From NCBI GenBank assembly GCA_009783295.1, contig WRHK01000024.1, positions 1-55,675 on the forward strand: a stretch of 55,675 nt of DNA, read 5' to 3'. The stretch comes from Promicromonosporaceae bacterium (lineage in GTDB: Bacteria > Actinomycetota > Actinomycetes > Actinomycetales > Cellulomonadaceae). Below, piece after piece: positions 5,636 to 31,748 of the stretch (position 1 is the first letter of the stretch; the number at the start of each line of letters is the position of its first letter). The translations under genes were made by a program, and so were the position numbers. The notes below the pieces were generated by a model. That model saw only the letters and a list, made by a program, of their open reading frames with translations. It searched no databases and had not been told where the DNA came from.

Positions 5636-7357
5636 TCAGACGTCTAGCTCCACCAACAGGTCCGTCGCGAACCCGTCGCCAATGTGGTCCGGCGTTCCGA
5701 CCAGCGCCACGCGGTCGAGGTAGATGTTCCGGTGCTCGCAGCTCGTCTCCGGCAGAAGGAGACACGCATGGCAGGCGGCGAGGTTCAAGCCGTCGGCGCC
5801 CGAAGGCCCGGACTCCGAGCACACCGGATCGTTCGAGCACCAACCCGCGCGGCTCACCGCCGACTGCAGTGCGTGAGCGAACCGCGCCTCGTCAGCGAGA
5901 GCGGCGAGGCCGCCAAGACTCCCGGCGGCATCGGACGAGGCGGTGTACACGAGGACACCAGTCTGGTCGCCGTCCGCGTAGATCCGCTCGCGCAGCGATC
6001 CCACGGGATAGCCGGCGTCGAGGCTGAGCTCCTTCAGAACTGCGTGCGCCAGCGAGTGGATCGCGATGAAGCGCGCGCTCGGCGCTTCTGGGCTGACAGC
6101 GCCGGACTCGGCAGCCCGCCGGTCGAGCGAGTCGGCGAGGCGCTTCTGGCGGTCGACAGCGAACGCAGACCTCTCCCAGTCGGAGACGAGCGCGTCGTCG
6201 AGGCGGACGAAGACGCCCTCACCAAGCACCTCCGTGGCGGGGAGCCAATCCCTCGGAGCTGCGCTGAGCCGCGCCACGCGCGGGGTCGTCGTGTCCGTGG
6301 GCATCGGCGTCACCCGTGAGAACCCGGTGAGCGCACGCACCTCCCGAAGCCGGGTCACCTTGGAGACCTGAGCGACGAGTCCTCGCAGCTCGACGGCGAC
6401 GTCGACCTCCACGCACTGGAACGTGTCGCGCGATCCGGCGTCGTTGCCGTCGATCAGCGCCCGGTACTCCTCGGCCCGAAGTTCAGCCTCGGTCGGGACG
6501 TGGTTCGGGTCGAGACCCCTGCGCTGGCGCACCTGTGCAAGGACGCCTTCGACGGTAAGGCCCGGCGCCCGCTGCTTGTCGACGACACCGGCGATGGCGC
6601 CGTCGTCCAGGTGCTCGAGGATGTGCCAGTTCCGGGTCACGTACTGCGCGGCGGGGCTGGACCACGGCGGGATGGAGATGCTGGACCGCACGGCCGCGAA
6701 CCAGACGTTCGACGAACCACGCTGGAGCACCCGCAGCGGCTTCTCGCACGAGGGTTCGTTCTCGACCCCGAGCAGCCAGGGTCGCCGACCAGCGCAGGAC
6801 TTGATCTTCTGCAGCGCGCCGGCCGAGAACGATCCGTCGAGGTCATGAGCGGGAACGCCGCACGAGCAAGAGACAACGATGTCGGCGAGGGACGACGACG
6901 CGCCGCGGGTCGTCAGCTTGAGCTTGTGGTTGTCGCCGACGACCTCGTGGCCCCGATGGACCCACTGGAAGTACGGGAAGTCCTCGATGTGGCCGTTCTC
7001 GCAGCAGGCCACGAACCGCGATGGCGTCAGGTCCGTGACACAGTCCGGGCACTGCGTCTTCCGTGCATCGAACCGCCAGAAGTGGTCGAGCCGTCGGCAC
7101 GACGGGCAGTAGTGGTACTCGGGGAAACGCACCGCGGGAACGTCTCCCCTGTTGCTCCCCGTCGATGGTGCACGGAACGTGCGGACCCGAAGGGATCGAG
7201 CGAGTCGCGGCTCCTCCACCTCGGCGCACCACCGCTCGTCCCAGTCGTCGGTCCCGCAGATCATGAAGCTCTGATCCCCGGCGGGGAACAACGAGCCCAC
7301 GCCGTAAGTGGTGACGAGTTGGCTCTGGCGCGCCTTCGGCTTGTCAATCGTCGCCAT
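5636..7357 (-). CDS. drmB: DISARM-type protein DrmB (DUF1998)
   Basis: 573 residues from ATG 7357; a GTG at 7366 is an alternative start. The N-terminal QLVTTYGVGSLFPAG, three Cys pairs of zinc-ribbon type (CPSCRR near 88, CPDC near 105, CSCG near 167) and the C-terminal ACHACLLLPETSCEHRNIYLDR are typical of DUF1998 proteins and of DrmB. DrmB forms a complex with DrmA in DISARM anti-phage systems and helps it engage foreign DNA. It overlaps drmA by 14 bp and is the last gene of the operon. No DrmC-like phospholipase-D nuclease follows it. Whether this set protects by the published DISARM mechanism is an inference. Confidence 0.88.
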   Translation of the reverse strand: MATIDKPKARQSQLVTTYGVGSLFPAGDQSFMICGTDDWDERWCAEVEEPRLARSLRVRTFRAPSTGSNRGDVPAVRFPEYHYCPSCRRLDHFWRFDARKTQCPDCVTDLTPSRFVACCENGHIEDFPYFQWVHRGHEVVGDNHKLKLTTRGASSSLADIVVSCSCGVPAHDLDGSFSAGALQKIKSCAGRRPWLLGVENEPSCEKPLRVLQRGSSNVWFAAVRSSISIPPWSSPAAQYVTRNWHILEHLDDGAIAGVVDKQRAPGLTVEGVLAQVRQRRGLDPNHVPTEAELRAEEYRALIDGNDAGSRDTFQCVEVDVAVELRGLVAQVSKVTRLREVRALTGFSRVTPMPTDTTTPRVARLSAAPRDWLPATEVLGEGVFVRLDDALVSDWERSAFAVDRQKRLADSLDRRAAESGAVSPEAPSARFIAIHSLAHAVLKELSLDAGYPVGSLRERIYADGDQTGVLVYTASSDAAGSLGGLAALADEARFAHALQSAVSRAGWCSNDPVCSESGPSGADGLNLAACHACLLLPETSCEHRNIYLDRVALVGTPDHIGDGFATDLLVELDV

Positions 7358-10300
7358 CGCTGGCACCTGCTCTCGTCCTCGTCGGTCGGATGATCCTGAG
7401 CGTGCTCTCCCTGTCGACGTTCCTCAGCGAGGTCAGCGTCGGCCAAGGGGTGTCGGAGGGAGGGAATGACTCTGCGAGCAGCGTGCCCGCACCACCCCCG
7501 GGCGGACTGCCCGCCGGCACCATGAGCGCCTTGTCGCCTGCGCCGTGCCAGCTGGCGTATTTCGCCAGCACGCCCGCATCCCACGCAGTCGCCCACGACT
7601 CGGCGAGCTCCGCCAGCGCGTCCTCGACGGAGTCGGCGGTCTCTGCGTCGGCAACCTCGGCCGCGCGTTCGGCGACGATGCGGGCGATACCGTCGAAGGC
7701 GTCGGAGTCGACAGGCACCCCAACGGAACCGTCCGCGGCCGCACCGGACGTCGTGTGCCTGGCGAGGATCGTCAGCAGTCCGTGGAGGCCGCGGTCGAGT
7801 GCTCGCGGCGCGAAGGGCGTCGCCCCCGTCGCCTCGACCTGCTTGTAGAGCGCCCGGTGGTAGGACGTGAACGACTCGAAGTGCGACAGGTCGCGCGACC
7901 GCGACGCGTTGAACAGGGTAAAGACAAGCCCCGGAAAGCGGCGACCAACGCGGCTCGTCGCCTGGATGTACTCCGACGTCGTCTGCGGCTGACCCATCAC
8001 CACCATGAGACCGAGACGGTCGACGTCGACACCGACGGAGATCATGTTCGTGGCGAGCACGACATCCGGCGTATCGGGGTTCGGCAGTGAGGTCTGCAGG
8101 CGTTCGAGCTGCTCCGGGATCTCGCTCGACCGCTTGCGCGACGTGAGTTCGGCAGGATCTCGGATCTCGCGAACGGTGGAGCCGAGTCGACCGGCGACGA
8201 CCTTGACCCTGTCGCGGACGTCGTCGCTGGTCTGGATGTAGGCGGCGCCCAGGACTCGAAGGCTGTTGAAGTAGCCCAGCAGCGTCCAGTACGCGTCCTT
8301 CACGGTCTCGTCGGCGTCGAGGTCGTGCGCGCCCTGGAGCACGGCGGCGTAGGTTCGCACGAGGAGTGTCGCGTGGCTCGTGCTCGGTGCCATCAACCCG
8401 ACGTATCGTCGTGTCCCCTTCTCCGCCGGCGTCGCGTCGACGGCGAAGAACGAGTCGCTCGCGTCGAGCCCCGGCGGCGGGAACTGCTGTGATGTCCGGT
8501 TGAACACCGCCGAGACCTGGTGGGCGGCTCGACGGATCGTCGCGGTGGAGGCCACGAGCTTGGGGCGGGCGTGCGTGTCGGGATCCGTCGCCAGGAAGTC
8601 GATCGCCGTCTCGTACAGGCCGACGAGCGTTCCGAGCGGTCCGGAGATGAGGTGCAATTCGTCCTGGACGATGAGGTCCGGCGTCGCGTCAGTGCCGGTT
8701 GTGCCACCTCGTCCGAACAGGAGGCCGCTCTTCTCGTTCCAGGCGAGCATCGCGAACTTGTCGACCGTGCCGATGATCAGCGACGGGCGCTGGTCGTAGA
8801 CGTCCTCGTCGACGAGGCACACCGGGAGGCCGTCACCGCCGTGGAACCGGCACTCGAGGTCCGGGCACCGGACATACATCCGCGGCATGTGACGGTCGGC
8901 CTTGTACGCCTGGTGATCGAGCTTGGCGCCGCACCACGGGCAACGCAGGAGCTGAACGGGGTTACCCGAGTCGCCCGGGTCCTCGTGGTTCGAGAGCTTC
9001 CGCAGCGCCTTCGCGGCGTCGTCGACCTTGTTCGGCGTGGCACCCTGACCTACCCAGAGCCCGATGGTGAAGGGCGCCTTGTCGCGGAGGTCCGGGTCGG
9101 TCGACCGGAGATCCTCCAGGGCGCAGATCAGGCCGGTCGCGCGCTCGAACTGCTGGAGGGTGAGAAGGCGCAGCGTGTAGCGCATGATCACGCCGACGCC
9201 GCCCCCGCGGCCGTCGTCGCCGGCGCCCCGAAGCCTGCGGTGGACCAGGGTGAAGGCTATGAGTCCGAGGTAGGCCTCGGTCTTGCCGCCACCCGTCGGG
9301 AACCACAGGAGGTCGGCGACATCGCGGTCTTCGCAGGCCGGATCCGCCAGCCCTTCGAGATTCAGGAGGATGAATGCGAGCTGGAACGGCCGCCACGAAC
9401 CGACGACCGCGGTGGTCTTGTTGCGCACGTACTCCTGCTTGCTGCGCTGCTGCTGCATGACGGAGTTCATCGCCTGGAACGACTTGCGCGCCACTGCATC
9501 GCGTTCGAGAAGGGCTATGCCGCCGCGCATCCGGACGACGGCGCGCTGGGCGTCGTCGCAGTGCTTCTCGGCGGTCTCGCGATGGTGGGCTGGCAGACCC
9601 TCGTCACGGGTCCTGGCGCGCTGGTCCGAGATCCATTTCTCGTAGGCGTCGACGAGTGCGCTCAGCGGCGCGGTCAGCGTCGGGATATCGCCCGCGCCGG
9701 CCAGTCCGGGCATCTCCAGGCCCGGCACGTCGATGCGATCCGCTTTGGCCAACGGAAGGTCGTGCTGAGGGAAGAACGTCGTGCGGAGTTCGTCGACATG
9801 CTCCTGCTCGTCCCACGTCACGGCGACGCCGTGGCCGACGGCGAGGTGTCGCTCACGGCGGTAGAGCAACTCACCACCGCGCTCGTCAGAGTCGAGATGG
9901 GCCAACACGCGGTCAGGGCGTCGGTCCTTGAACTCGCCGTCGACGGCCCGGACGCGAAGCTCGGGACGGAACCAGCACAGGTGGTCGACGCGCCCCTTCT
10001 CCGGACGGCGCCAACTGTTGACGAGAACGAGGGTCACGTTGACGACGCCATCGCGGGCAGGCCTCACGACGGTCCGCAACTGGAGCCCGTCGACGACCGT
10101 CTGCGCGGGGCGCACGCCGGGCGTCACGTCGATCGTGATCTCGGTGGGTCCCACGGTGAGCCGTCGCCACTGGCCGATCCTCTTCGTCAGGGCTCGGGTC
10201 TCAGGGCGCTCCGCTCCCTCCCCTGCGCCGGCGGAGGTGTCGGGCTCGTACCGGTCGGTAGAGACCTCGACGGTGATCGTGGTCGTACCAGAGGACAGGC

Positions 10301-10583
10301 CGAAGGTGAGGCCGATCGTGGATGGGTAGCGCAGGTGGGCGAACGAGACGCCGGGGTCGTAGTCGGCGTCGGGGGCGGCACCCGCCTCGACCTCGGGCGT
10401 CTCGTTCGGGTCCTCGACCGACGACCCGGCGCCGACACTCGACTGGGGATGGAGGATGCCGACGATAAAGCGCTCCAGCGGCTCCTCGCCGAGGACGTCG
10501 TCGTCGGGCCCGCCGTAGAGGTCGGCGCGGACGGCGTCGACCATATGCTCCCGCGCCAAGTACCACGGTGCGAGGTCAGTCAT
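7344..10583 (-). CDS. drmA: DISARM-type helicase DrmA
   Basis: 1079 residues from ATG 10583 (start MTDLAPWYLAREHM), overlapping the upstream helicase gene by 8 bp. The Walker A segment LLWFPTGGGKTEAYLGLIAF lies near residue 430, followed by IMRYTLRLLTLQQFERA, the box IVQDELHLISGPLGTL (DEAH-like, DELH), LVASTATIRRA (motif III) and in the C-terminal half VVLATNMISVGVDVDRLGLM and QATSRVGRRFPGL (motifs V and VI). Four cysteines in RCPWCGAKL and RCPDLECRF form a probable zinc site. This layout and length fit DrmA, the SF2-type translocase of DISARM. It is the strongest marker that this island contains a DISARM core. Confidence 0.92.
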   Translation of the reverse strand: MTDLAPWYLAREHMVDAVRADLYGGPDDDVLGEEPLERFIVGILHPQSSVGAGSSVEDPNETPEVEAGAAPDADYDPGVSFAHLRYPSTIGLTFGLSSGTTTITVEVSTDRYEPDTSAGAGEGAERPETRALTKRIGQWRRLTVGPTEITIDVTPGVRPAQTVVDGLQLRTVVRPARDGVVNVTLVLVNSWRRPEKGRVDHLCWFRPELRVRAVDGEFKDRRPDRVLAHLDSDERGGELLYRRERHLAVGHGVAVTWDEQEHVDELRTTFFPQHDLPLAKADRIDVPGLEMPGLAGAGDIPTLTAPLSALVDAYEKWISDQRARTRDEGLPAHHRETAEKHCDDAQRAVVRMRGGIALLERDAVARKSFQAMNSVMQQQRSKQEYVRNKTTAVVGSWRPFQLAFILLNLEGLADPACEDRDVADLLWFPTGGGKTEAYLGLIAFTLVHRRLRGAGDDGRGGGVGVIMRYTLRLLTLQQFERATGLICALEDLRSTDPDLRDKAPFTIGLWVGQGATPNKVDDAAKALRKLSNHEDPGDSGNPVQLLRCPWCGAKLDHQAYKADRHMPRMYVRCPDLECRFHGGDGLPVCLVDEDVYDQRPSLIIGTVDKFAMLAWNEKSGLLFGRGGTTGTDATPDLIVQDELHLISGPLGTLVGLYETAIDFLATDPDTHARPKLVASTATIRRAAHQVSAVFNRTSQQFPPPGLDASDSFFAVDATPAEKGTRRYVGLMAPSTSHATLLVRTYAAVLQGAHDLDADETVKDAYWTLLGYFNSLRVLGAAYIQTSDDVRDRVKVVAGRLGSTVREIRDPAELTSRKRSSEIPEQLERLQTSLPNPDTPDVVLATNMISVGVDVDRLGLMVVMGQPQTTSEYIQATSRVGRRFPGLVFTLFNASRSRDLSHFESFTSYHRALYKQVEATGATPFAPRALDRGLHGLLTILARHTTSGAAADGSVGVPVDSDAFDGIARIVAERAAEVADAETADSVEDALAELAESWATAWDAGVLAKYASWHGAGDKALMVPAGSPPGGGAGTLLAESFPPSDTPWPTLTSLRNVDRESTLRIIRPTRTRAGASDGDD

Positions 10584-12360
10584 CGCGGTCACCGCTCCAA
10601 TCGAAACGCAACATGCCCGAGCACACGGGCGACAACCAGAGGCCATGTCTACCGACGGCGCCGCGCTGGGTTTCGCCCGAGACCGTGGCGATACTCTCGA
10701 CGCGGGCGCCGGTGATGCGAGGCCAGGGCACCTTTGCGCGGTCCCGCGGTCCGAGCCACCGCGCAAACCCCTCGCCGAACTCGAGCGACGAACGTCCGAC
10801 CACGTACCCGTCGTGGAGTAAGTTCCAGAACGGCAAAGCCAGGGTCGACCTCGTCAGGTCGAGCTCGAAGCGCAAAGGGTCTCCAGGACGCACGTCCTGA
10901 GCGATGTGGATCTGCGTCGCCACCTTGTCCACGCCGGGTGGTTCAGCGCGGTCGAGGTCGTCGACCTTGAACTGATAGCCGAGCTTCGTTCCAGGCTTCC
11001 ATCCGGACAGATACCAGCGGCCGGACCTCCCGGCGGACGCGCGCAGCCTCCGGTCGTCCGGACCGTCGCCGCGGACGATCACGTCCCGTGCGCGTGAGAG
11101 TGCCACGAACATCGCGCGGACGGACTCGGCATCGTCCGGACCATCGACGTCCAGCCAGGGCTTGTCAGGGAAATCGAGGCGGACGACGTTGTCGAACTCC
11201 AGGCCCTTGGCCCGGTGGACCGTCGATACGACGAACCGGGCATTCATCGGCTCGATGAGGTCGGGGACGAGCGGTCTGGGGCGGCGCAAGCCACGGGCCA
11301 GCACGGGAAGGTTGACTTCACGACCCGCGCCACCGGTGACCGAGCGCAGAGCCCGCCAGATCGACGCTGGATCGAGATCGGGTGCCACCTCGCAGGCTCG
11401 CTTGTCGACCTCATCCCGAGTGATGCCCGTCATGGGGTGGTCGGCGAGAATGCGCGCGATCCACTGGGCCAGCACGCGCTGATGTGCGCTGCGCCGAACC
11501 TCGACGGCGTCACCCGTAGCCGCAATCGCCTCAGCGGTGAGCAACGCCTGGCCGTTGTTCGGCGTCAGGAACACGGTGTTCCCGCTCCACCGACGTGCAT
11601 GCTCGACGGCGGAGGCGATGTCTCCGACGGGCACGAGCCCGGCGTAGAAGTCGTCGAGCGATGAGTTCCCATCACCTCGAAGGGCGGCCTCCCGCATGGC
11701 GACGACCTTGCGAGCGTCACGGGACCTGGCGCGGTACTGACCTGTGAGTTCCTTGACGGAGACCCCGGCCATGCGCCTCACGGTCGCCAGCAGTTCGAGC
11801 GAGGTCGTGGCGGACAGGGGAGAGTTCTCCGGCCGCAACTGCCAGTCGTAGATGCCCTGCGCGGGGTCGCCGAGCAGGCTGAAGCCGGCATCGTCCGGGA
11901 GCGCTGCGAGGATCTGCAGGAGGAAGTCCGCCCGAACCCCCACGACATCCTGGATCTCGTCGACGACGAGGTGCTCGAGACCGTCGAGCCGATCCCACGG
12001 TTCGCCTGCGAGCAGAGTCGTCGCCAACCTGATCCGCCGATCGAAGCCGAGTCCCGCGACATCCTCATCGGAGAGGTCACGGATGATCTCGCCGGCGAGC
12101 GAGTCCATCGTCTGGACCGTCACCGGCGCGCCACCACTCGCACGAAGGCGTGCGTCAGCGGCGTGCACGGCGGCGTTCGAGAACGAGAGCACGAGAATGC
12201 CGTCGGTCGGGTCGACGCCCTCCTCGTCGACCAGGTGGGCCACGAGGTTGGATACGACCTGCGTCTTGCCGGAACCCGGTCCGGCGATGACGAGCTGCCG
12301 GGTGTCCGGCTCGACCTCGACGGCGTCCAACTGGCTGGGATCGAGCTGCACGTCCGTCAT
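10576..12360 (-). CDS. UvrD/Rep-like SF1 DNA helicase
   Basis: 594 residues. Walker A IAGPGSGKTQVVSNL (26-40), DEAD-equivalent box LVVDEIQDVVG (about 130), STVHRAKGLEFDNVVRLDFP and MFVALSRARDVIVRG toward residues 385-430 are the standard SF1A helicase motifs. The C-terminal 150 residues lack UvrD features and may be an added nucleic-acid or partner-binding domain. It is 594 residues against about 720 for UvrD. The gene starts with a 4-bp ATGA overlap with the upstream GHKL-helicase and overlaps drmA by 8 bp, so it is co-translated with the DISARM-like genes. UvrD-type helicases are not part of the DISARM classes I know of. Confidence 0.88.
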   Translation of the reverse strand: MTDVQLDPSQLDAVEVEPDTRQLVIAGPGSGKTQVVSNLVAHLVDEEGVDPTDGILVLSFSNAAVHAADARLRASGGAPVTVQTMDSLAGEIIRDLSDEDVAGLGFDRRIRLATTLLAGEPWDRLDGLEHLVVDEIQDVVGVRADFLLQILAALPDDAGFSLLGDPAQGIYDWQLRPENSPLSATTSLELLATVRRMAGVSVKELTGQYRARSRDARKVVAMREAALRGDGNSSLDDFYAGLVPVGDIASAVEHARRWSGNTVFLTPNNGQALLTAEAIAATGDAVEVRRSAHQRVLAQWIARILADHPMTGITRDEVDKRACEVAPDLDPASIWRALRSVTGGAGREVNLPVLARGLRRPRPLVPDLIEPMNARFVVSTVHRAKGLEFDNVVRLDFPDKPWLDVDGPDDAESVRAMFVALSRARDVIVRGDGPDDRRLRASAGRSGRWYLSGWKPGTKLGYQFKVDDLDRAEPPGVDKVATQIHIAQDVRPGDPLRFELDLTRSTLALPFWNLLHDGYVVGRSSLEFGEGFARWLGPRDRAKVPWPRITGARVESIATVSGETQRGAVGRHGLWLSPVCSGMLRFDWSGDRDD

Positions 12361-15300
12361 CGGCGGTTCCAGAGGTACTCGAACTCGTTGAACGCGAGCA
12401 GCTCCCCATACTTCTGGAAGTTATCCCGAACGTTGATGATCAGGACCTCCTCCGAGCCGCCGTTCTTCGGCCCGCGCAGACCGCGGCCGATCATCTGCTG
12501 GTAGACGTTCGGACTGAACGTCGGTCGGGCGACGAACACGGCCTGCACCTTCGGGGCGTCGAAGCCCTGCGTGAGCACGTTGTAGTTGGTCAGGACGCGG
12601 ATCCGTCCCGCCTTGAACTCCTCGACGTAGTGGCGGCGGGCCGCTGGCTCGGTGTCGGCGGAGATCGACACGGCCGGGATCCCACGGTGCGAGAGCAGGG
12701 CCGCGATAACGCGCGAGTTCTCTACCGACGGCGCGAAAGTCAGGATCGTCCAGTCGCCGGGCAGGTCCGCGATCGCGTCGACGATGCGCTCCGTACGAGC
12801 CAGGTCCGCACCCAGGCGAGTGTTCACTGCCGAGGGCAGGCGTCGCATCTTCTCGATCTCCGCCAGATCGACGTCGGTGAGCTCGACGTCCGTGCCGTCG
12901 ATGACCTGGTGCCTGACCTGCGCGAGCACGCCCATGTCCTGCAGCTCCCCATAGGGGTCATCGGCATTCCGAAAGGCGCCCCGATCAAGCCGGTTTCCGT
13001 CGTAACGCCGGACCAGACGCTCCGTCTCCTCGGTCGACGTTCCACGGAACGGCGTCGCGGTGAGGCCGATGAGGGGCTTGGGGTCGGCTGCGGAGTCGCG
13101 CCCGCGACCGCCTCGCCCCATCCACTCGAGCACCTTCGTGTACGTCGGAGCAATCGACGTGTGGGCCTCATCGATGACGACCACCGAAGGGTCCTTCAGC
13201 CAGTCGTACTCGTCGCCGCCGCCCTTGGAGCGCTCATCGAGGGTGTCGATCGTCGCGATGACGAGCTGGAACGCTCCCGGCTCCTCAGGGACGTGGTTGC
13301 CGCCCCACAGGCGGCCCAGCCGCATCGGAACCGAACTGCCGATCGCGCGCCACACGTAGGTCCACGTCTCTGCGGCCTGCTCGCAGAGCTCGTCCGTCTG
13401 CGCGATCCAGACGAGCGGACGGTCGGTGTCGATCTTCGTCGCGTTGATCTCGTTGACGAGCGCCTCCACGGTCACGCGCGTCTTGCCTGCACCCGTCGGC
13501 AACGACACCATCCCGCGGTCGCTGCCGACGCCGCGGAGCATGGCGGCGATGTTGCGCGTAACGTGCTGCTGATAGTCGTGGAGTTCGCCAAGGGTGGCTG
13601 GGCCATCGATCACCTCGACTGCCGGGCGGCTGGATCCCGGGAAGCCTGCCCACTCGGCCGGGAAGCCAAGGGATGCGATCCACTGCCTCGTGGGGCGGCG
13701 TCCACTCCACTCGCGCGGCGGGTCCAGCCTGGCCGCATCGAGGGCGGTGCGGAGCTGCTTCAGGATGCCGACGCCGTGGACCGCCCTGGCCAGTGCGGCG
13801 ATCTCCTGTGGCGTGGTCTCCTCGGGCCGGTTCTCGAGAGCCTCAAGGGCTTGAGCAGGCACAATGCGCCGGAGCGCGTCAAGTCCGACCGCCATCAGCA
13901 GCCGCTCGTCGTCGTCGGTGGCCTTCTTGATGGCCACACGAAGCTTGTTCGCGACGGTCTGCGCCATCTGATCGAAGACCTGTGCAACGTCGCGGCTCGA
14001 CATCCCGAGCGAGAGCACGTGCGAGACCTGCTGAAGCTGGCCCTCGCGGCTGGTGGCTGTCGTGAGAATCGTCGTGCCCTCCCGGCGCGCGGCGATGCTC
14101 TGTGCCTTCTGTCCCTGCGGTGTGGCGATCATCCGCTCGAGCCGAGCGCAGGGCTGGAGACGTAGGTCCTGGTCCTCGGGCGCGAGCCTCAGCCGTAGCG
14201 GCGGGAACAGATCAGTCAGGAACTCGGCCTCGCCAGAGGTCTCGACGACGATCTCCTCTTGGAGCAAGTCCTTGCCGAGCGGCATGCTCCAGTTCTGGAC
14301 GTAGATGTCGACGTCCTCGGCCTCCGCCACCCGCAGTGCGGGAACCTGGGCCTCCAGCATGGCGGCGTAGACGTCGTCGTCGTCGGTGACTCCGACGTTC
14401 TTCGGCTCCACCAACTGCCGACGCGACCCGACGCGAACCATGATGGCCTCGGGCGTGATCGAGTCGGCGGTCCATACGTAGAAGGCGGCGCGACGCCGGT
14501 CGTCCGAGTCGTCGCGCGTCCACGTGTCGGCGATCGACTTGTAGAGCGACCAGTCGTCCGCCGTCACCTTCGCCGGGTCATCCTGCAGACGAAGCGTGCG
14601 AGCCACATGCGAGGAGGTCTCGTATGCAGGCAGGGAGTCCGTCGGCACCGACTCGCTCGCGACGAGAACGTGCTTCGGCTTCATCAACCCGAACGACGTC
14701 CGGAGGAGGCCGTACCTGCGGATGAACCACGCCTCAGGCGAGATGACCTTCTTCTGGCCGTAGCTCGCGTTGGACCGGTGGCGCACCGTACGCCCGGCCG
14801 GGATGCCCTGCGCGATGATGCGAGCGGTCGCCGCGGCACGCGCCTCGGGCGACATCTCCGTCAAGATCTGCATCGGCCAGAGCGGAGGCGGACCCTCGAC
14901 GAGAACGTAGTCGGGATCAGGCCTCGCACCCTGCTGGTCGGCGATGAAGTGTTCCTTCATCGCGTCGATGTAGCTGAGGTACCACTGCTCGCGAGACACC
15001 TCCTCGTATCGGGCCGTCGGGGCCTCGACCGCGCCGATCTCTCGCAGCAACTCCGCGTCGTCCCGGTGAAACCTCGGGTCGATCAGGAAGTCGCGATCCC
15101 GCGAGCCGTCGACAGGGACGATGTCACCGGCGAGGAATGCCATCCCAGGAGGCACCCACCGCCCGGCAGCGGTCTTGACCCTCGTCCGAAGGGTCAGGTC
15201 GCGAGCGTCCGTGCAGTTGAGGTCCTGGCGAAGGAGCGATAGAGCGGTGCCGTGCGGGATCTCGCGCAGGATCTCCCAGATCTGTGGCCATACGGAGCCA

Positions 15301-17183
15301 GGCTCCTTGAGCGCCGCGGCGGTCAGCGCCCTCGTCAGGAGCTCGCGAAGCCGTCCGGTGCGGTCCATGAGGACGACGCCGAGCCGCGAGAGCCCCTCCT
15401 TGACGCCGGGAACGGCGACGAGCTCGGGATCGACGAAGTCGACACCCGTGCGATCCTCGCCCTCGACCTTGACGAACACTCGTCCCTTCGTCGCCGCCTT
15501 GAGCACGCCCGTGTCAAGGCGGACGATCTTCGCCCTCGAGACCCCGCTCGCGAGCTGTCGCCCGGCCTCCAGATCCGTCAGCCGACCCGACTGGTCGAGG
15601 ACCCACGCCGCGAGGTCGATTGCCTTCGCGCACTCGTCCACGGCGCCCTTCTCAACGACGTCCTCCAGCCACGCCTCGATCGACGCCGGGTGTGAATCTG
15701 GTGCGCTGTCGGCAGCCTTCATGAGGCGTGCGACCTTGGCGCGCCGCTCGGGGTTCGTGTACACCATCGGGTGCACCCAGCGGTCGGCGTGTCCGCCCGC
15801 ATCGCGCCAACGCTCGAGCCACGCGACCGAAACCGGCGAGTTCCGGCCCAGCGTGTCTCCTCCGAGCCACTGCAGCTTCGTCGCCACCCGGAGCCGTCCG
15901 GTCCCATCGGGCAGCGACGGCTCGCGCCTCAGGTGATTGATCACGGGCACGTTGATGATGTCGTCAGCGTCGCTTCGCGGCTCGTTGCCTCGCGCAGGCA
16001 TCGCGTCGAGGACTGCGGCAATCCGATCCGTGCCCTGGAAAGCACGGAACGCGCGGACGATCAGGGGCGGGAGCACCCGTGTCAGCAGCTCCTCGTTGAA
16101 CGCGCCCCGCAGCAGGTGCTTGCGGTCGTCCGAGAGCTTCCAGGGGGCGTTGACGATTCCGGACAGCGTCGTGAGGTCGCCCGTCGGGAAGTAGGACCAG
16201 AACTGACCCATCTCGTAGGCGGAGCGCGTCAGGCAGACGGCATACGCAACCTCGACCACGTCGCGTCCGGCGGAGTAGGAGCCCTCGACCCGCGCCGCGG
16301 GACTCGGAACGTGGGTGGTCCTCGCCACCGCCCAATCGGTCGCCTCATCGTTGACCTGAAGCCGAAAGACGCCGGCACCGACCTCCTCTACGGAGAGGGT
16401 GCGCCTACGGGGCGGCTGGCGCTGGAGCACGAGGCCACGCTCCTCCGCGGAGAGGGCGAGTCCCCGCAGCGCAACGACGTCACGGGCCGGGAACTGGTCC
16501 TCGTTGCGCAGGCCGACCCTCGTGACATGAGGGGAGAACAGTACGAACTCGTTGCGGAACAGATCGAGCCGCACCGACAGGAGGCGGTGGGCTTCGGCAT
16601 CCCGCAGCGGGAGGACAACGATCGTCGACGCCCACTCCTGGAGCTCGCGGAGCACCGCGTCACCCTCGAAGTCGAGCGCCGGATCGAGGATCGTCGCGGT
16701 GCGCATCGTCGGGAAGCGGCGAGACTCGAAGCCTGCCTCACGCAAGGTCGCTTCGGCCTGGGCCCTGTCGAACCCGAACGAGACGCTCGTGCTGTAGATC
16801 CTCGGTGCGTCGCTGACGGCAAGGACGGACTTGAAGCCGATGCCGAAGCGACCCACCTGCTCCTCACCCTTGGACGAGATGTCCGAGGCCATGATCGCCC
16901 GGACGCCCTTCTCGTCGAACGGCGCACCGTCGTTTGCGACGTACAACGCGTCCCGGGTGAGCACCACCTCGACCTGCCGCCCACCTGCTCGGGCCGCATC
17001 GACCGCGTTCTGGACGAGCTCCTCCAGCTGACGGGTGCTGTAGCCGCCCGTGGAGATCTTCGCCTCGTTGTTGGCGTCCTCGAGGATCCTCGCCGGGTCC
17101 TCCGCGTAGACCTTGAGGCAGGTTGCGGTCTGGTTCTCGACGACGGCGGCCAACACGGCGTGGCCAGGGGTCCAGCTCGGCAC
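12357..17183 (-). CDS. GHKL ATPase (Hsp90/sacsin-like) fused to SF2 DEAH helicase
   Basis: 1608 residues. GTG at 17183 is chosen because GGGAG lies 7 bases upstream; an in-frame ATG at 17237 is the alternative. The N-terminus is a GHKL ATPase: N-box ELVQNAVDAARAGG (N59), ANDGAPFDEKG (D85, G86) and lid VGRFGIGFKSVLAVSD (110-125), as in sacsin and Hsp90 N-domains. About 1000 residues without recognised motifs follow. The C-terminal 385 residues are an SF2 helicase: SLPTGAGKTRVTVEAL (near 1225), VVVIDEAHTSIAPTY (near 1336), LIGLTATPFRG, LTNYNVLTQGFDAPKVQAV and QMIGRGLRG. One chain thus holds a clamp-type ATPase and a DNA translocase. It follows the m5C methyltransferase gene and is coupled to the UvrD-like gene by ATGA. 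Confidence 0.88.
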   Translation of the reverse strand: MPSWTPGHAVLAAVVENQTATCLKVYAEDPARILEDANNEAKISTGGYSTRQLEELVQNAVDAARAGGRQVEVVLTRDALYVANDGAPFDEKGVRAIMASDISSKGEEQVGRFGIGFKSVLAVSDAPRIYSTSVSFGFDRAQAEATLREAGFESRRFPTMRTATILDPALDFEGDAVLRELQEWASTIVVLPLRDAEAHRLLSVRLDLFRNEFVLFSPHVTRVGLRNEDQFPARDVVALRGLALSAEERGLVLQRQPPRRRTLSVEEVGAGVFRLQVNDEATDWAVARTTHVPSPAARVEGSYSAGRDVVEVAYAVCLTRSAYEMGQFWSYFPTGDLTTLSGIVNAPWKLSDDRKHLLRGAFNEELLTRVLPPLIVRAFRAFQGTDRIAAVLDAMPARGNEPRSDADDIINVPVINHLRREPSLPDGTGRLRVATKLQWLGGDTLGRNSPVSVAWLERWRDAGGHADRWVHPMVYTNPERRAKVARLMKAADSAPDSHPASIEAWLEDVVEKGAVDECAKAIDLAAWVLDQSGRLTDLEAGRQLASGVSRAKIVRLDTGVLKAATKGRVFVKVEGEDRTGVDFVDPELVAVPGVKEGLSRLGVVLMDRTGRLRELLTRALTAAALKEPGSVWPQIWEILREIPHGTALSLLRQDLNCTDARDLTLRTRVKTAAGRWVPPGMAFLAGDIVPVDGSRDRDFLIDPRFHRDDAELLREIGAVEAPTARYEEVSREQWYLSYIDAMKEHFIADQQGARPDPDYVLVEGPPPLWPMQILTEMSPEARAAATARIIAQGIPAGRTVRHRSNASYGQKKVISPEAWFIRRYGLLRTSFGLMKPKHVLVASESVPTDSLPAYETSSHVARTLRLQDDPAKVTADDWSLYKSIADTWTRDDSDDRRRAAFYVWTADSITPEAIMVRVGSRRQLVEPKNVGVTDDDDVYAAMLEAQVPALRVAEAEDVDIYVQNWSMPLGKDLLQEEIVVETSGEAEFLTDLFPPLRLRLAPEDQDLRLQPCARLERMIATPQGQKAQSIAARREGTTILTTATSREGQLQQVSHVLSLGMSSRDVAQVFDQMAQTVANKLRVAIKKATDDDERLLMAVGLDALRRIVPAQALEALENRPEETTPQEIAALARAVHGVGILKQLRTALDAARLDPPREWSGRRPTRQWIASLGFPAEWAGFPGSSRPAVEVIDGPATLGELHDYQQHVTRNIAAMLRGVGSDRGMVSLPTGAGKTRVTVEALVNEINATKIDTDRPLVWIAQTDELCEQAAETWTYVWRAIGSSVPMRLGRLWGGNHVPEEPGAFQLVIATIDTLDERSKGGGDEYDWLKDPSVVVIDEAHTSIAPTYTKVLEWMGRGGRGRDSAADPKPLIGLTATPFRGTSTEETERLVRRYDGNRLDRGAFRNADDPYGELQDMGVLAQVRHQVIDGTDVELTDVDLAEIEKMRRLPSAVNTRLGADLARTERIVDAIADLPGDWTILTFAPSVENSRVIAALLSHRGIPAVSISADTEPAARRHYVEEFKAGRIRVLTNYNVLTQGFDAPKVQAVFVARPTFSPNVYQQMIGRGLRGPKNGGSEEVLIINVRDNFQKYGELLAFNEFEYLWNRR

Positions 17184-17351
17184 CGATCTACTCCCGATGA
17201 TCATCATTGGTTGGGCAACGATGCCCACATCGAGCATCCTCGACTGGTCGGGACTGTACGACTCGCCACGGACATCAACGGCCGCGCGAATGGCCCAGGA
17301 CCAGCTTCATCCCCAACGTCGCACGGATTTCACCCGCTGAGTTGCGATCGG

Positions 17352-18458
17352 CTACAGAACCTGCGCGAGGTGGCGCCCGATCGCCTCTCCCAGCTGGACC
17401 GGCACCGCGTTGCCGATCTGCCGCGCGATCTGAGCCCGATCCCCTACCCAGAGATAGTCGTCCGGGAAACCCTGGAGCCGCGCCGCCTCCCAGTGTGTGA
17501 TGGCGCGGTGCTGGGTCGGGTGGATGAACCGGCCCTTCTCGGGCTTGAAGAACTCCGTCCGGATCGTCACTGACGGCTTCTCCCACTCGAGCCGGCCCAT
17601 GACGTCCGAGGCGCTGTGGGGGTTGTTGCGCCAGCAGTCCGCGCTGAGCTCGTCGGGCAGGTCGTGGCGACTCCCGCCGTACGGGATCGCACGGAACCGC
17701 TGCTCGTAGAGCGGACTCCAGTTGCGCGTGATGTGCAGCTCGGGGCCCTTGAAGACGCCGGGCAGCCACATCCCACGGAACTGCACCTTGCGCGGCGGTA
17801 GCGAGATGCTCCCCGCGAAGCCACGGATGCCCGCGAGCGCATCGCGGACGGTTGCGCGCGGAGCATCGGACGCGGTCGGGTGTCCGGGGTGTTCGATGTC
17901 GCGGCGGACGCCGATCACGATCACCCGCTTCCTGGTCTGCGGCGCCCCGAAGTCAGCCGCGTTCAGGATCTCCACTCGGATCTCGTAGTCGGCGAGCTCG
18001 CCGCTCGCGAAAGTGTCGACGAACGCGGCGTACTCCCCCGAGCGCAGCAGCGCCGGAACGTTCTCCATCACGAAGGCGCGGGGCATTGCGCGCCGAACGA
18101 CCTCGACGTACGGGCGCCATAGCGTGTTCCGGAGGTCGAGTGGGTCGCGCTTCCCGATCAAGGAGAAGCCTTGGCATGGCGGCCCGCCCAACACCACGTC
18201 GGCAGACGGCGTCCGCTCGTCCTCGAGCCATGCTGCGATGTCGCCGGCGTAGACGACGTCGCCAAAGTTCTGCGCGTAGGTTGCAGATGCCGCAAGGTCG
18301 ATCTCCACGGCCCGCGTGGTTGCGAAGCGATTGCTGCCCTGATGGAAACCCAGGCTCAGTCCGCCGGCGCCAGCGAAGAGGTCGATGACGGAGAGCCGAT
18401 CCTCCGCCCCTGAGGCGGTGCGCCGGTGCTGGTCGGAGGGCGCGGCATCGGATGGCAC
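17352..18458 (-). CDS. DNA (cytosine-5) methyltransferase, predicted GCCGGC-specific
   Basis: 368 residues from GTG 18458, chosen because a -10 box sits 6 bases upstream; an in-frame ATG at 18488 is possible. Conserved m5C motifs: I VIDLFAGAGGLSLGF, IV GGPPCQGFS (nucleophilic Cys), VI FVMENVPAL, VIII QTRKRVIVIG, X QIARQIGNAVP. The target-recognition region, from ELHITRN through CWRNN and DVMGR to PSVTIRTEFFKPEKG, is shared with the second methyltransferase at 20770-21936. Its neighbour encodes an NgoMIV-type endonuclease (GCCGGC), so it probably methylates that sequence. It lies between that endonuclease and the GHKL-helicase/DrmA/DrmB genes, and could serve both as R-M partner and as the self-marking enzyme of the DISARM-like set. 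Confidence 0.92.
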   Translation of the reverse strand: MPSDAAPSDQHRRTASGAEDRLSVIDLFAGAGGLSLGFHQGSNRFATTRAVEIDLAASATYAQNFGDVVYAGDIAAWLEDERTPSADVVLGGPPCQGFSLIGKRDPLDLRNTLWRPYVEVVRRAMPRAFVMENVPALLRSGEYAAFVDTFASGELADYEIRVEILNAADFGAPQTRKRVIVIGVRRDIEHPGHPTASDAPRATVRDALAGIRGFAGSISLPPRKVQFRGMWLPGVFKGPELHITRNWSPLYEQRFRAIPYGGSRHDLPDELSADCWRNNPHSASDVMGRLEWEKPSVTIRTEFFKPEKGRFIHPTQHRAITHWEAARLQGFPDDYLWVGDRAQIARQIGNAVPVQLGEAIGRHLAQVL

Positions 18459-18464
18459 GGTCGC

Positions 18465-18470
18465 ATCGTA
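18465..18470 (-). promoter_or_regulatory. leaderless -10 box of the first m5C methyltransferase gene
   Basis: TACGAT on the minus strand, 6 bases before the GTG at 18458. This fits the TANNNT box of actinobacterial leaderless transcripts. No good -35 was seen. Confidence 0.5.
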
Positions 18471-18508
18471 TGTGCGACCGCCGAGCATTCCGGCGACGCG
18501 CGGCCGCT

Positions 18509-19447
18509 CTATGCGAGCGCCTGGATCTCGGCCACGAGGTCGTCATAGTCGCGGATCCGACGCTGGTCGACAAGGCGGTGGAACTGATCCCTGCCTCGCC
18601 GGCGCTGCGGCGTCTTCCCGTAGACGTCATCGACGGCCTGAGTGAGGGCGGCCACGTCAAGGTGGTAGACGCAGTCGACGTCGCCAGCACCGCCACCGAG
18701 AAGGTTGAGCATGTACGGCCGCGGCTCCATCGTGACGACCGCGAAGTGCGGCATGCGTCCCCGGCGGAGCGCCGACATCTTCGCTCCCTGGGAGCGACAA
18801 TCCTGGGCACGATCGGTGCGCAGCGACCACTTCAGCGAGAGGCCAACTTCGAGGCTCGGCAGGCGATCTGGAGTGCCCTGCCGCGCGACCGTTAGGTCAA
18901 GCCCAAGGAGGGACTCGTCGCCGAGTTCGTCCAAGAGCTTGTGGAGGACCGCGTCCGCTGCATCGACGGAGCTCTCGACTGCGGCGATCATCGCATCGGC
19001 GCGACGCATGTCGGCCGGCTTCGTGGCCCGCGCCCGCACGAACCTCGTCAGTCGTCCCCAGGCGACGTTGAACTCCTTCGATCGCCCAGGCTTCACGTCG
19101 CGGATGGCACCGACATGGCGATACTGCTCGAAGTCGAAGAGCTTCCTCTCCGGTCTGACCTCGATTCCGCCTGCGTCGACAGGGAAGCGACTGAGCAGAT
19201 CGGTGGCGACCGCGTCGGCAAGCACTCGCCCCGTCGGCTCGTCCTTCTCACCCGCGGTGGGCACGTGCCGTACCCCGAGCACATCGAACAGGGCTTCGCC
19301 TACCTCGACGCTCAAGTCGTCGCTGGCGTCGGAAGTGTTGGGCTTCCCGTTCTTGCGGTACTTGCACAGGTCCTTGGCGAAGGGGGCGGGCACGGTGGCG
19401 ACGATAGGGGCTCCAATGCTCCAGGTGCTCCGCGACACACGGCGCAT
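18509..19447 (-). CDS. NgoMIV-family type II restriction endonuclease
   Basis: 312 residues against 286 for NgoMIV. The C-terminal part follows NgoMIV closely: SLKWSLRTDRAQDCRSQG (NgoMIV CKWTIRSDRAQNARSEG), then RGRMPHFAVVTMEPRP and GDVDCVYHLDV. K206 matches the catalytic Lys; D184 in LLGLDLTV is the likely metal-binding Asp. The equivalent of NgoMIV Glu70 is not clear by eye. NgoMIV cuts G^CCGGC as a tetramer. The ATG overlaps the stop of vsr by one base (TGATG), so both are translated together; the methyltransferase gene starts 50 bp downstream in the same direction. It could be the DNA-degrading arm of the DISARM-like operon. Confidence 0.85.
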   Translation of the reverse strand: MRRVSRSTWSIGAPIVATVPAPFAKDLCKYRKNGKPNTSDASDDLSVEVGEALFDVLGVRHVPTAGEKDEPTGRVLADAVATDLLSRFPVDAGGIEVRPERKLFDFEQYRHVGAIRDVKPGRSKEFNVAWGRLTRFVRARATKPADMRRADAMIAAVESSVDAADAVLHKLLDELGDESLLGLDLTVARQGTPDRLPSLEVGLSLKWSLRTDRAQDCRSQGAKMSALRRGRMPHFAVVTMEPRPYMLNLLGGGAGDVDCVYHLDVAALTQAVDDVYGKTPQRRRGRDQFHRLVDQRRIRDYDDLVAEIQALA

Positions 19448-19863
19448 CAACCGGGGAGGGCGTCTCGCAGGGCGGCTTCGATGGTGTCGGCCGCGGCCGA
19501 CGCCTGCTCGTGCTCCCAGATCCGCACGACTCGCCAGCCAGCGGCTGCAAGGTCGGCGTCGGCCTGCCGGTCGCGGGCGGCGTTCCGTGCGAGTTTCTCG
19601 GCCCACCACTCGGCGTTCGACTTGGGATGCGTCGCGTGCTGGGGACACGAATGCCAGAAGCAGCCGTCGATATAGACGGCGATCTTCGCCCTGGGGAACA
19701 CGACGTCCACTCGCCGTCGACCAGGAAGCACCGCCCGCTGCACGAAGTACCGGCGTCCTCGCCGGTAGAGCTCGCGCCGAACCGCCAGTTCAGCAGCGGT
19801 GTCACGGTTCCGAACCCGCGCCATCCGAGCGCTGGTCGCCGCATCCGTCTTCACGCCCTCCAT
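19447..19863 (-). CDS. vsr: very-short-patch mismatch endonuclease Vsr
   Basis: 138 residues, the usual Vsr length. It reads SARMARVRNRDTAAELAVRR at 11-30, then RRRVDVVFPRAKIAVYIDGC with the catalytic Asp, FWHSCPQHATHPKSN with the Cys/His zinc cluster, and WRVVRIWEHE near the end. Vsr nicks beside T:G mismatches that arise when 5-methylcytosine deaminates, and so limits mutation at methylated sites; this fits two m5C methyltransferases in the same island. It is the first gene of the leftward run and its start codon is separated by only 20 bp from the NaeI-type gene on the other strand. Confidence 0.93.
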   Translation of the reverse strand: MEGVKTDAATSARMARVRNRDTAAELAVRRELYRRGRRYFVQRAVLPGRRRVDVVFPRAKIAVYIDGCFWHSCPQHATHPKSNAEWWAEKLARNAARDRQADADLAAAGWRVVRIWEHEQASAAADTIEAALRDALPG

Positions 19864-19883: not shown

Positions 19884-20807
19884 GTGACGGATCTCGCGCC
19901 GAAGCCGACGCTGCCTGCACCGGGAGACATCTGCACACCCGATCCGCGGCCCGGCCGGACTCGGGAGCCGCACGTGCTCCTCGCCCCCGAGGACGACGAC
20001 GAGCTCCAGCAGGTCTATGCCTGGCTGGCGCCGTCTCCCGTCGAGCGCGCGTTCACGAGAGCTGTCGACGACGCCATCAAGTACGTCCTCGACGGATCCC
20101 GCACCGGGCGGTTCGACCTCATGAGCCCGGACGTCGACTCGGACGAACGAGCATCGGTCGGTACGAAGCTGCAGTACCGGATCCTCAACGAGCTGAACCT
20201 CGTGAAGGAGCCACCGCTCGACACGACCATCCTCGGGATCCCCGTCGAGCTCAAGGCGACGGTGCGGTCGAACTGGATGATCCCGACGGAAGGTCAGTGC
20301 GAGATCTGCCTGCTCGTCCAGGTCGATGCCTCCGCCCCCCGCCACCGCGCCTTCCTCATGAGGACGCACCGAGCGTGGCTGCGCGACGGCGCCAACAAGG
20401 ACGGGAAGCGCGGGATCACCAGCGCAGCCCTCGCTCCCTACGCCTTGCCCGTTCTCGACTGGACGCCGCTGCCGCCCGAGCCGCTCAAGCGACTCACCCG
20501 GCCTCAGCTCGACGTCGTGTTCGCCCCTCGCGTCGGACAGACCGAACGCCTCACGGCCCTGTTCGGGTTTCTGCCGGACGTCGTCGTGCCACGGTCGTCG
20601 ATCGAAACCGTCTGTGCGGGCAACCGCGACCCACTGCGTCGGGCGCGCCAGGCAAAGCCCCTCGTCGCCGCTCGACACGGCCTCACACTTCTGTGCGGCA
20701 CGTGGCGGGAGGACCTCGAACTCGCGGCTTCGCGCGGGTTCGACATCTCCGGTGACGCTTGGGTGGCGCTTACTCCCGAGGCGCTCGCGCGTCCAGGAAC
20801 GGCTTGA
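19884..20807 (+). CDS. NaeI-family type II restriction endonuclease
   Basis: 307 residues against 317 for NaeI. LDGSRTGRFDL (69-79) matches NaeI YDGQRTGRWNF, and the catalytic core PLDTTILGIPVELKA gives D113, E122 and K124 at the spacing of NaeI D86, D95 and K97 (Asp95 is replaced by Glu). WMIPTEGQCEICLLVQVDAS matches WMLPPESIGHICLVIWASD. NaeI cuts GCC^GGC after binding two sites and has a C-terminal CAP-like effector domain; the C-terminal half here has a similar size. Its 3' end overlaps the convergent methyltransferase gene by 38 bp. The residue equivalent to NaeI Leu43, where a Lys change gives topoisomerase activity, appears to be Val. Confidence 0.88.
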   Translation: MTDLAPKPTLPAPGDICTPDPRPGRTREPHVLLAPEDDDELQQVYAWLAPSPVERAFTRAVDDAIKYVLDGSRTGRFDLMSPDVDSDERASVGTKLQYRILNELNLVKEPPLDTTILGIPVELKATVRSNWMIPTEGQCEICLLVQVDASAPRHRAFLMRTHRAWLRDGANKDGKRGITSAALAPYALPVLDWTPLPPEPLKRLTRPQLDVVFAPRVGQTERLTALFGFLPDVVVPRSSIETVCAGNRDPLRRARQAKPLVAARHGLTLLCGTWREDLELAASRGFDISGDAWVALTPEALARPGTA

Positions 20808-21936: not shown

Positions 21937-21943
21937 GGGGGCG

Positions 21944-21949
21944 ATCGTA
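21944..21949 (-). promoter_or_regulatory. leaderless -10 box of the second methyltransferase gene
   Basis: TACGAT on the minus strand, 7 bases before ATG 21936. Same layout as at 18465 and 19871. Confidence 0.45.
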
Positions 21950-22050
21950 CGGTGACGAACTGACACTCCCCGTTGGGCTCGCGCGTGCGCTCCCGGTTCC
22001 GCGCACGAGACCAGGCCGTCTCGGGTCGTATTCATTGGGCACATCGAGGT

Positions 22051-22056
22051 CTCCTT
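22051..22056 (-). promoter_or_regulatory. Shine-Dalgarno supporting an upstream start of the second methyltransferase
   Basis: AAGGAG on the minus strand, six bases before an in-frame ATG at 22044. It competes with the leaderless start at 21936. The rest of 21950-22322 holds no gene that I recognise; CCCCG-CGAG-CGGGG is a small hairpin there. Confidence 0.5.
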
Positions 22057-22322
22057 GAGCGTCGAGTCGCTCGTCCAAGTGCACTTCACGTGCTCGCGAG
22101 CGCGGGTCGGCTCGACCGCCGCTGTGGACGAGGCGCGCCTCTCAGGGGCCAGCCGTGCGGACATAGCTCCCTCGAGAGGGCCACCCACGCCCGCTCCCCA
22201 CCAGACCCCGCGAGCGGGGTGACAGCTCTACGGCAGCCCTGGGCCATGGCCATCTCAGCAGTTCAGCGGCCATCGACGGTGTGAGCACCATGGGCTGGGC
22301 ACGTTGTGCCAAGCTGAGCCGC

Positions 22323-31724: not shown

Positions 31725-31729
31725 GCTCA

Positions 31730-31748
31730 CACCTCCGACTTGGAGGTG
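31730..31748 (-). promoter_or_regulatory. hairpin that masks the relaxase Shine-Dalgarno
   Basis: On the relaxase mRNA, CACCTCC (31748-31742) pairs perfectly with GGAGGTG (31736-31730) across the loop AAGTC. The second arm contains the GGAGGT ribosome site of the GTG at 31724, so the site is fully double-stranded when the hairpin forms. Confidence 0.6.

Follow-up and report, generated by a model that had tools for sequence, protein, structure and literature searches.

We identified a four-gene operon in a Promicromonosporaceae bacterium that encodes a GHKL ATPase fused to an SF2 helicase (GHKL-SF2), a UvrD-like SF1 helicase, DrmA, and DrmB. This four-gene core is a real, conserved, closely packed operon whose members diverge together. 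An m5C DNA methyltransferase is usually nearby, and the restriction enzyme that accompanies it varies. On balance, we propose that a fixed core and an exchangeable m5C modification and restriction cassette together form a DISARM-like anti-phage module here, and that the core acts as a methylation-sensing motor effector.

Gene content of the locus

The window (the whole stretch of DNA that we analyzed, 55,675 nucleotides) is an entire contig, C24 (WRHK01000024.1), of a 3.98-Mb genome in 119 contigs. An earlier note on this DNA described seven same-strand genes at 5636..19863, and these are present as claimed: on the minus strand, the reading order is vsr, the NgoMIV-type gene, the m5C methyltransferase, GHKL-SF2, the UvrD-like gene, drmA, and drmB. 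The note was right about the gene content, but its end at 19863 is too short, as genes for a NaeI-type enzyme, another m5C methyltransferase, and an HNH_2 endonuclease extend the cassette to about 23.3 kb. The genes are:

5636..7357, minus strand: drmB (MZB/DUF1998), the final core gene; the open reading frame reaches 7366, with an ATG at 7357
7344..10583, minus strand: drmA, a YprA-type SF2 helicase of 1079 amino acids
10576..12360, minus strand: UvrD/PcrA/GajB-like SF1 helicase of 594 amino acids (Pfam UvrD-helicase, 3.3e-21)
12357..17237, minus strand: GHKL (sacsin/TmtA-like) ATPase fused to a ResIII-type SF2 helicase, 1626 amino acids, the leading core gene
17352..18488, minus strand: m5C DNA methyltransferase 1 (Pfam DNA_methylase, 1.3e-60)
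18509..19447, minus strand: NgoMIV-type restriction endonuclease (Pfam NgoMIV_restric, 1.6e-21)
19447..19863, minus strand: Vsr-type mismatch endonuclease (Pfam Vsr, 3.3e-17)
19884..20807, plus strand: NaeI-type restriction endonuclease, divergent from vsr (Pfam NaeI, 4.5e-28)
20770..22188, minus strand: second m5C DNA methyltransferase (Pfam DNA_methylase, 2.3e-59; PADLOC DruM, 4.5e-112)
22281..23315, plus strand: HNH_2 endonuclease (Pfam HNH_2, 5.7e-8)

Some of the starts are approximate. GHKL-SF2 may begin about 30 nucleotides further downstream. The probable start of the NgoMIV-type gene is 19447, and a longer reading frame would overlap vsr. The true start of the second methyltransferase is probably downstream of the position given, as its domain begins at residue ~86. 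With the likely starts, we reproduced the overlaps that had been noted among the four core genes: 4 bp between GHKL-SF2 and the UvrD-like gene (12357-12360), 8 bp between the UvrD-like gene and drmA (10576-10583), and 14 bp between drmA and drmB (7344-7357).

The G+C content is 66-69% over about 6-24 kb, with flanks mostly at 70-74%, and this drop suggests that the block was acquired. A gene for a TrwC relaxase lies in the window beyond the HNH_2 gene. Scans of the window for promoters and terminators gave nothing that exceeded shuffled sequence.

The four core genes recur together

We queried with four aligned GHKL-SF2 proteins, found 443 relatives, and used the nearest 80. Because these are the ones nearest to the query, we also searched additional, even samples of genomes. 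Some of the 80 loci have less than 10 kb of DNA on one side, so absences in those loci are weaker.

In 76 of the best 80 of 443 loci, genes for GHKL-SF2, UvrD, DrmA, and DrmB are contiguous, on one strand, and in that order. The exceptions among these 80 are L094, which is rearranged and cut; L098, in which we did not find DrmAB; and L108 and L115, in which another SF1 helicase occupies the UvrD slot (it is of the NERD type in L115 and clusters with that of L108).

In the even sample of the phylum, 13 of 396 genomes match GHKL-SF2 at 1e-20, mostly over part of the protein. In the even sample of the class, 18 of 394 genomes match at 1e-60; one of these matches (in genome G128) is to the helicase only, which leaves 17 of 394 genomes, the window's included, with 18 full-length loci. 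The quartet is present in 16 of these 18 (14 of 15 new loci, plus the window and L019). The other two are L208, which has DrmAB and no match to UvrD, and L021, which has a DruE-like helicase and a UvrD-like helicase adjacent and no DrmAB alongside. GHKL-SF2 was thus found without DrmAB in L021 and L098. L160 has DrmA-DrmB-UvrD with no GHKL-SF2 within 20 kb; by coordinates, this genome's GHKL-SF2 is about 27 kb away.

The core also behaves as a unit in its spacing and divergence. The junctions between core genes are at most 10 bp in 75/78, 72/78, and 78/81 cases. The pairwise-distance matrices of the four proteins correlate at r = 0.961-0.985, to which shared host ancestry contributes. This comparison used 77 of 83 rows; those dropped failed the length limits or lacked a core gene. 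The atypical rows are L092 (short UvrD), L096 (short DrmB), and L094 (DrmA cut by the end of the DNA). In a quick tree of DrmA (which flagged long branches for L021, L168, L022, and L170), 39 of 41 GHKL-linked representatives form one branch together with L160, with an SH-aLRT of 99, and this branch is apart from the DrmC-linked DrmA. The DrmA of L108 and L115 fall elsewhere.

The earlier note recognized that it would be refuted if the GHKL-SF2 and UvrD-like genes were rarely beside drmAB; they are together in 76 of the best 80 of 443 loci, and the class sample has them together in 16 of its 18 full-length loci. On these counts, the tight junctions, and the correlations, we reject a chance assembly of four genes. 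The recurrence and the separate branch of DrmA support the claim of a separate, recurrent arrangement of DrmAB without DrmC.

The core proteins

The matches of DrmA and DrmB show clear homology to the DISARM core of known structure. DrmA matches the PADLOC DrmA model at 8e-242 and DrmA in the PDB (7s9v_A) at 2.8e-170; DrmB matches PADLOC DrmB at 3e-72, DrmB in the PDB (7s9v_B) at 7.7e-76, and Pfam MZB at 3.3e-8. These and the Pfam matches of the methyltransferase confirm that DrmA, DrmB, and an m5C methyltransferase are present, as had been claimed. Across relatives, the motif residues of GHKL, SF2, UvrD, and DrmA (PTGGGKTEA and DELH in DrmA) and the cysteines of DrmB are near-invariant; for the catalytic motifs of GHKL-SF2, this is across 83 sequences.

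The N-terminal part of GHKL-SF2 matches PADLOC TmtA (1.3e-45 over residues 31-389) and sacsin-type GHKL (2.6e-8, with sacsin chains at 2.5e-8 in a profile comparison), and residues 1218-1398 match Pfam ResIII (7.8e-18). An AlphaFold (AF2) model of residues 1-1190 had a mean pLDDT of 88.6 and a pTM of 0.60. When this model was compared to known structures, only Hsp90 and sacsin were among the matches listed, with TM scores by query of at most 0.20, and none of them gave a named structural counterpart to residues about 420 to 1190.

The AF2 model of the UvrD-like protein had a mean pLDDT of 91.7, and its C-terminal domain is beta-rich. UvrD/Rep head the Foldseek matches listed (best 1.6e-17), with AdnAB and AddAB lower down; these matches appear to align through the helicase part of the model. 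We considered whether this protein might hide a nuclease and rejected the idea: it has no match to a Pfam nuclease, and the 50 Foldseek rows listed are all helicases or helicase-nucleases with TM scores by query of at most 0.49.

The alignment of the window's DrmA to DISARM DrmA starts at residue 82 of the former and chain residue 230 of the latter. At the position of the DISARM trigger loop, the window's DrmA has an acidic stretch (between residues 46 and 87). Of 81 DrmA proteins, 80 carry a net negative charge in the stretch at this position, with a median of -7.

The modification and restriction cassette

An m5C methyltransferase is present in 77 of the best 80 of 443 core loci and Vsr is present in 58 of them. 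Of 20 stretches of 20 kb picked arbitrarily in two genomes of a single genus, none had the m5C methyltransferase or Vsr; around other DrmA loci, we found the methyltransferase in 5 of 25 and Vsr in 4 of 25. The three of the best 80 of 443 loci with no match to the methyltransferase are L039, L096, and L109, although clustering places one reading frame of L039 among the methyltransferases. In the class sample, 11 of 15 new loci have a methyltransferase within 20 kb. Widening the stretches around the four negatives raised this to 14 of 15, by adding L199, L201, and L207 but not L206 (about 11 kb). Vsr is in 5 of these 15 loci, or 8 with the widened stretches. There was no methyltransferase in ~42 kb around L019 or in the stretches of L021 that we examined.

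The methyltransferase can be on either side of the core and its distance varies. Only 25 of the best 80 of 443 loci have it within 1 kb of the core, so the cassette and the core may be separate neighbors.

The cassette swaps among NgoMIV, NaeI, EcoRII-C, HNH_2, or a set of M33-type genes. Among the best 80 of 443 loci, profile matches to M33 genes are by far the most common (51-52 loci), followed by NaeI (6), HNH_2 (3), NgoMIV (2), and EcoRII (1). The M33-type genes match phage-defense candidates in PADLOC. NgoMIV and NaeI types, which we take to cut the same sequence, occur together in the window, L108, and L115. In 19 of the best 80 of 443 loci we found none of these nuclease or M33 profiles, and all 19 have an m5C methyltransferase; the nuclease profiles are few, so further restriction enzymes may escape detection. 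A NERD-helicase profile matched 33 of the best 80 of 443 core loci; we did not use it, since the UvrD gene is probably among its matches.

The earlier note suggested that an NgoMIV-type enzyme may supply the nuclease. We reject NgoMIV as the intrinsic nuclease as a general rule: it was found in 2 of the best 80 of 443 loci and in 2 of the 15 new loci of the class sample, and other families of restriction enzymes are in its place elsewhere.

Lack of DrmC is not distinctive by itself

The earlier note held that a DrmC elsewhere in the genome would weaken its reading. We searched the genome with one PADLOC model of DrmC and found nothing at 1e-5. The genome's matches to PLD_2 are a two-domain frame of 432 amino acids on contig C22, on which the PADLOC model reached only E = 0.003, and a frame of 763 amino acids on contig C57. 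Using eight DrmC genes that accompany DrmA elsewhere, we also built a DrmC profile, which recovers all eight source genes and seven further places. It matched at only one of the best 80 of 443 relatives (L096, about 5 kb away). It had no match in the window, L019, L020, or L160, nor in the 15 new loci of the class sample, including those that were widened.

PADLOC matches listed for the seven operon proteins include no DrmD or DrmE. Like the earlier note, we did not recognize DrmC, DrmD, or DrmE in the operon. In the relative L044, though, a DrmD-like SNF2 gene is near the quartet (PADLOC, 1e-85), and the cluster that holds this gene (one member of which was profiled) occurs in 7 of the best 80 of 443 loci.

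In the phylum sample, 29 of 396 genomes have DrmA at 1e-30, with 30 loci by count. Three of these have the quartet and one (L160) has UvrD-DrmA-DrmB only. Another 13 have a match to DrmC nearby (E = 1.5e-48 to 1.5e-7). The remaining 13 lack the quartet as well as any confident DrmC nearby, although one has a weak match to DrmC. DrmAB without DrmC is not rare and has several forms. (In L165, L166, and L167, a NERD-type SF1 helicase precedes DrmA.) PMC9142583 reports that DrmC is dispensable in DISARM and often missing. Given that report and the 13 other loci without DrmC, the missing DrmC is not by itself distinctive of the quartet. The subtype lacking DrmC that the earlier note proposed stands as a separate arrangement, but the absence of DrmC is weakened as its distinguishing mark.

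Proposed role and alternatives

We infer a defense role for the core. In the reading that we favor, the m5C methyltransferase would mark host DNA, and Vsr would shield the host from the T:G mismatches left by deamination of m5C. DrmAB, shut by the acidic loop as in DISARM, would load onto unmodified DNA with 5' overhangs; candidate substrates are phage ends, replication intermediates, and cuts by the linked restriction enzyme. The GHKL ATPase may be an ATP-gated clamp that gathers the SF2 and UvrD motors on the same DNA. The motors would jointly unwind and block the invader, and enzymes of the cassette or host nucleases would then degrade it.

The DISARM precedent comes from PMC9142583, in which a trigger loop (residues 176-232) keeps DrmAB autoinhibited until 5'-overhang DNA opens it, and in which methylation is proposed to repress DISARM. 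Because an acidic stretch precedes the part of the window's DrmA that aligns, the same DrmAB gate may operate here, and GHKL-SF2 and UvrD may supply additional motors. The function of the acidic loop and any interaction between GHKL and UvrD are suggested by analogy only.

We also put forward, tentatively and as a rather unlikely mechanism, a restriction machine that works much like mismatch repair. A GHKL clamp that resembles MutL and carries its own SF2 motor would load the UvrD-type helicase where Vsr or the linked restriction enzyme has nicked or cut unmethylated DNA, the resulting 5' overhangs would open the DrmAB gate, and one complex would serve any m5C cassette.

The quartet could instead boost restriction, with type II enzymes that sense the invader and make the first cut and a RecBCD/AddAB-like processor that loads on the ends and stops repair. 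NgoMIV, NaeI, and EcoRII-type enzymes do occur in the cassettes, and the model of the UvrD-like protein resembles UvrD/Rep and, lower among the matches listed, AdnAB and AddAB. NgoMIV and EcoRII leave 5' overhangs, but NaeI cuts blunt, which we count against this idea. According to PMC9142583, 5'-overhang DNA activates DISARM DrmAB, which speaks for this reading. What makes the booster rather doubtful to us is the 19 of the best 80 of 443 loci that have a methyltransferase but no match to a restriction enzyme or M33 profile, and also two Corynebacterium loci in which the methyltransferase closely follows drmB: the neighbors that we scanned there are an AAA_16 ATPase (L056) and an Nramp transporter and a helicase-like protein (L062). 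A looser association, in which an m5C type II restriction-modification cassette with Vsr and a stand-alone quartet that ignores m5C marks are independent neighbors in a defense island, seems unlikely as well, and a little more so. It would explain why the side and distance of the methyltransferase vary (within 1 kb in 25 of the best 80 of 443 loci, and none near L019) and why cassettes are exchanged, and both the M33-type genes (51-52 of the best 80 of 443), which resemble phage-defense candidates, and the relaxase in the window are consistent with an island. But the methyltransferase is in 77 of the best 80 of 443 loci, as compared to 0/20 and 5/25 in our few controls, which exceeds a simple island background.

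We consider it very unlikely that the GHKL half acts like TmtA of Tiamat as an abortive-infection sensor whose activation kills or arrests the cell. About 360 N-terminal residues do match TmtA (1.3e-45), but no toxin-like domain was recognized among the Pfam and PADLOC matches listed for the four core proteins, and PMC12458937 reports that ARMADA, with three helicases and a methyltransferase, is non-abortive. Least plausible of all is a role in DNA repair instead of defense, with MutL-like GHKL, UvrD, and Vsr as a branch of mismatch repair for m5C deamination. GHKL, UvrD, Vsr, and an m5C methyltransferase do share one locus, and a parallel to MutL-UvrD-Vsr is drawn in a passage of PMC2292703. 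Against this, DrmAB is present, the distribution is patchy (17 of 394 genomes of the class have a full-length GHKL-SF2), and 22 of the best 80 of 443 loci have no match to Vsr.

If the defense role that we propose is true, then the quartet is an unnamed branch of bacterial immunity in some actinobacteria, and the DrmAB core would gain a second recurrent setting. Because the motor core stays constant while restriction enzymes are naturally exchanged, and because the m5C mark is removable, the open question of DISARM's nuclease would become approachable.

Comparison with known systems

The locus joins lines that, in the parts of the literature cited here, have so far been treated apart: the DISARM/YprA helicases, the MORC-like GHKL restriction operons, and the UvrD/GajB helicases. 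We found no description of this operon in the open-licence PMC literature that we searched.

DISARM comprises core DrmAB, DrmC, DrmMI and/or DrmMII, and DrmD or DrmE. The window shares with it a DrmA helicase, a homologous DrmB (DUF1998) encoded by its own gene next to drmA, a nearby m5C methyltransferase, and an acidic stretch at the position of the trigger loop. It differs in that DrmC was not found in the genome, nor DrmD or DrmE among the matches listed for the operon proteins, and because of these absences the locus is DISARM-like and not formally DISARM. Unlike DISARM, it has the GHKL-SF2 fusion and a UvrD-like helicase and is linked to Vsr and type II restriction enzymes, and its first methyltransferase fits PADLOC's DruM (8.5e-101, the best match) better than DrmMII (3e-53). 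The Figure 1 legend of a 2025 preprint by Bell (PMC12458937) mentions many uncharacterized DISARM-like classes. The quartet is probably one of these classes of the YprA family, and the preprint's authors may already know the clade; its main text uses none of the terms GHKL, Hsp90, sacsin, and histidine kinase.

ARMADA Type II, as passages of the same preprint describe it, combines SF2/RapA, YprA-like, and GajB-like UvrD helicases with a methyltransferase, so both it and the window have three helicases plus a methyltransferase. In ARMADA, however, YprA is a single chain with DUF1998 and a fused C-terminal Vsr-type nuclease, whereas DrmA, DrmB, and Vsr are separate genes in the window. ARMADA has a PglX-like methyltransferase and a UvrD with RelE; the window has an m5C methyltransferase, and a ResIII-type GHKL-SF2 replaces RapA.

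The GajB protein of Gabija is a UvrD-like SF1 helicase too, but GajA is not among the matches listed for the seven operon proteins, and the fold of our helicase ranks nearer to UvrD/Rep. With Tiamat, which we take to be the system of PADLOC's TmtA, the likeness is in the N-terminal GHKL region: TmtA aligns over N-terminal parts only (~31-586 at most), and the window's protein is fused to SF2 and sits in a four-gene operon.

The MORC/paraMORC restriction-modification neighborhoods (Iyer 2008, PMC2292703), in the passages that describe them, have a GHKL ATPase, an SF2 helicase, a DNA cytosine methylase, Vsr, and nucleases that include HNH and EcoRII-like types, and the window has the first four of these as well. 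DUF1998 does not appear in the text of PMC2292703. In those neighborhoods, GHKL and the helicase are neighboring genes; in the window, they are one chain, accompanied by DrmAB and an SF1 helicase.

The cassette of restriction genes and m5C methyltransferase beside the quartet (GHKL-SF2, UvrD-like SF1 helicase, DrmA and DrmB) continues immediately past the range described in the earlier note (5636-19863), and a relaxase gene lies close to it:

19884-23315, genes for a NaeI-type enzyme, another m5C methyltransferase and an HNH_2 endonuclease
28203-32108, TrwC-type relaxase (Pfam, 4e-90)

A relaxase so near the cassette suggests a mobile element. In a profile search of 80 loci (the best 80 of 443 GHKL-SF2 relatives), L108 and L115 have both the NgoMIV and NaeI types, as in the window. 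Genome G648 contains the quartet twice (L206 and L207), with about 40 kb between the copies, and an NgoMIV-methyltransferase-Vsr cassette sits between them.

A set of three genes adjoins the quartet in L074 (5124-9127), with comparable sites in 51 of the 80 loci. The first and third genes match the PADLOC phage-defence candidates PDC-M33A and M33C, and we found no match for the middle gene. The name PDC-M33 was not found in the open-licence PMC literature.

GHKL-SF2, or a helicase like part of it, also occurs in other settings. In L021 (genome G278), GHKL-SF2 adjoins two other helicases, one UvrD-like and one a DruE-like YprA helicase, as well as a 542-amino-acid protein with no match in Pfam or PADLOC. 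In L022 (genome G128), a stand-alone helicase that resembles the C-terminal part of GHKL-SF2 is opposite DrmA-DrmB and adjoins MzaB-E genes.

In three DrmA loci that lack the quartet (L165, L166, and L167), profile searches of the DNA around DrmA-DrmB gave no match to DrmC, the PLD nuclease of DISARM. These loci have a NERD-type SF1 helicase ahead of DrmA-DrmB, which is a second arrangement without DrmC.
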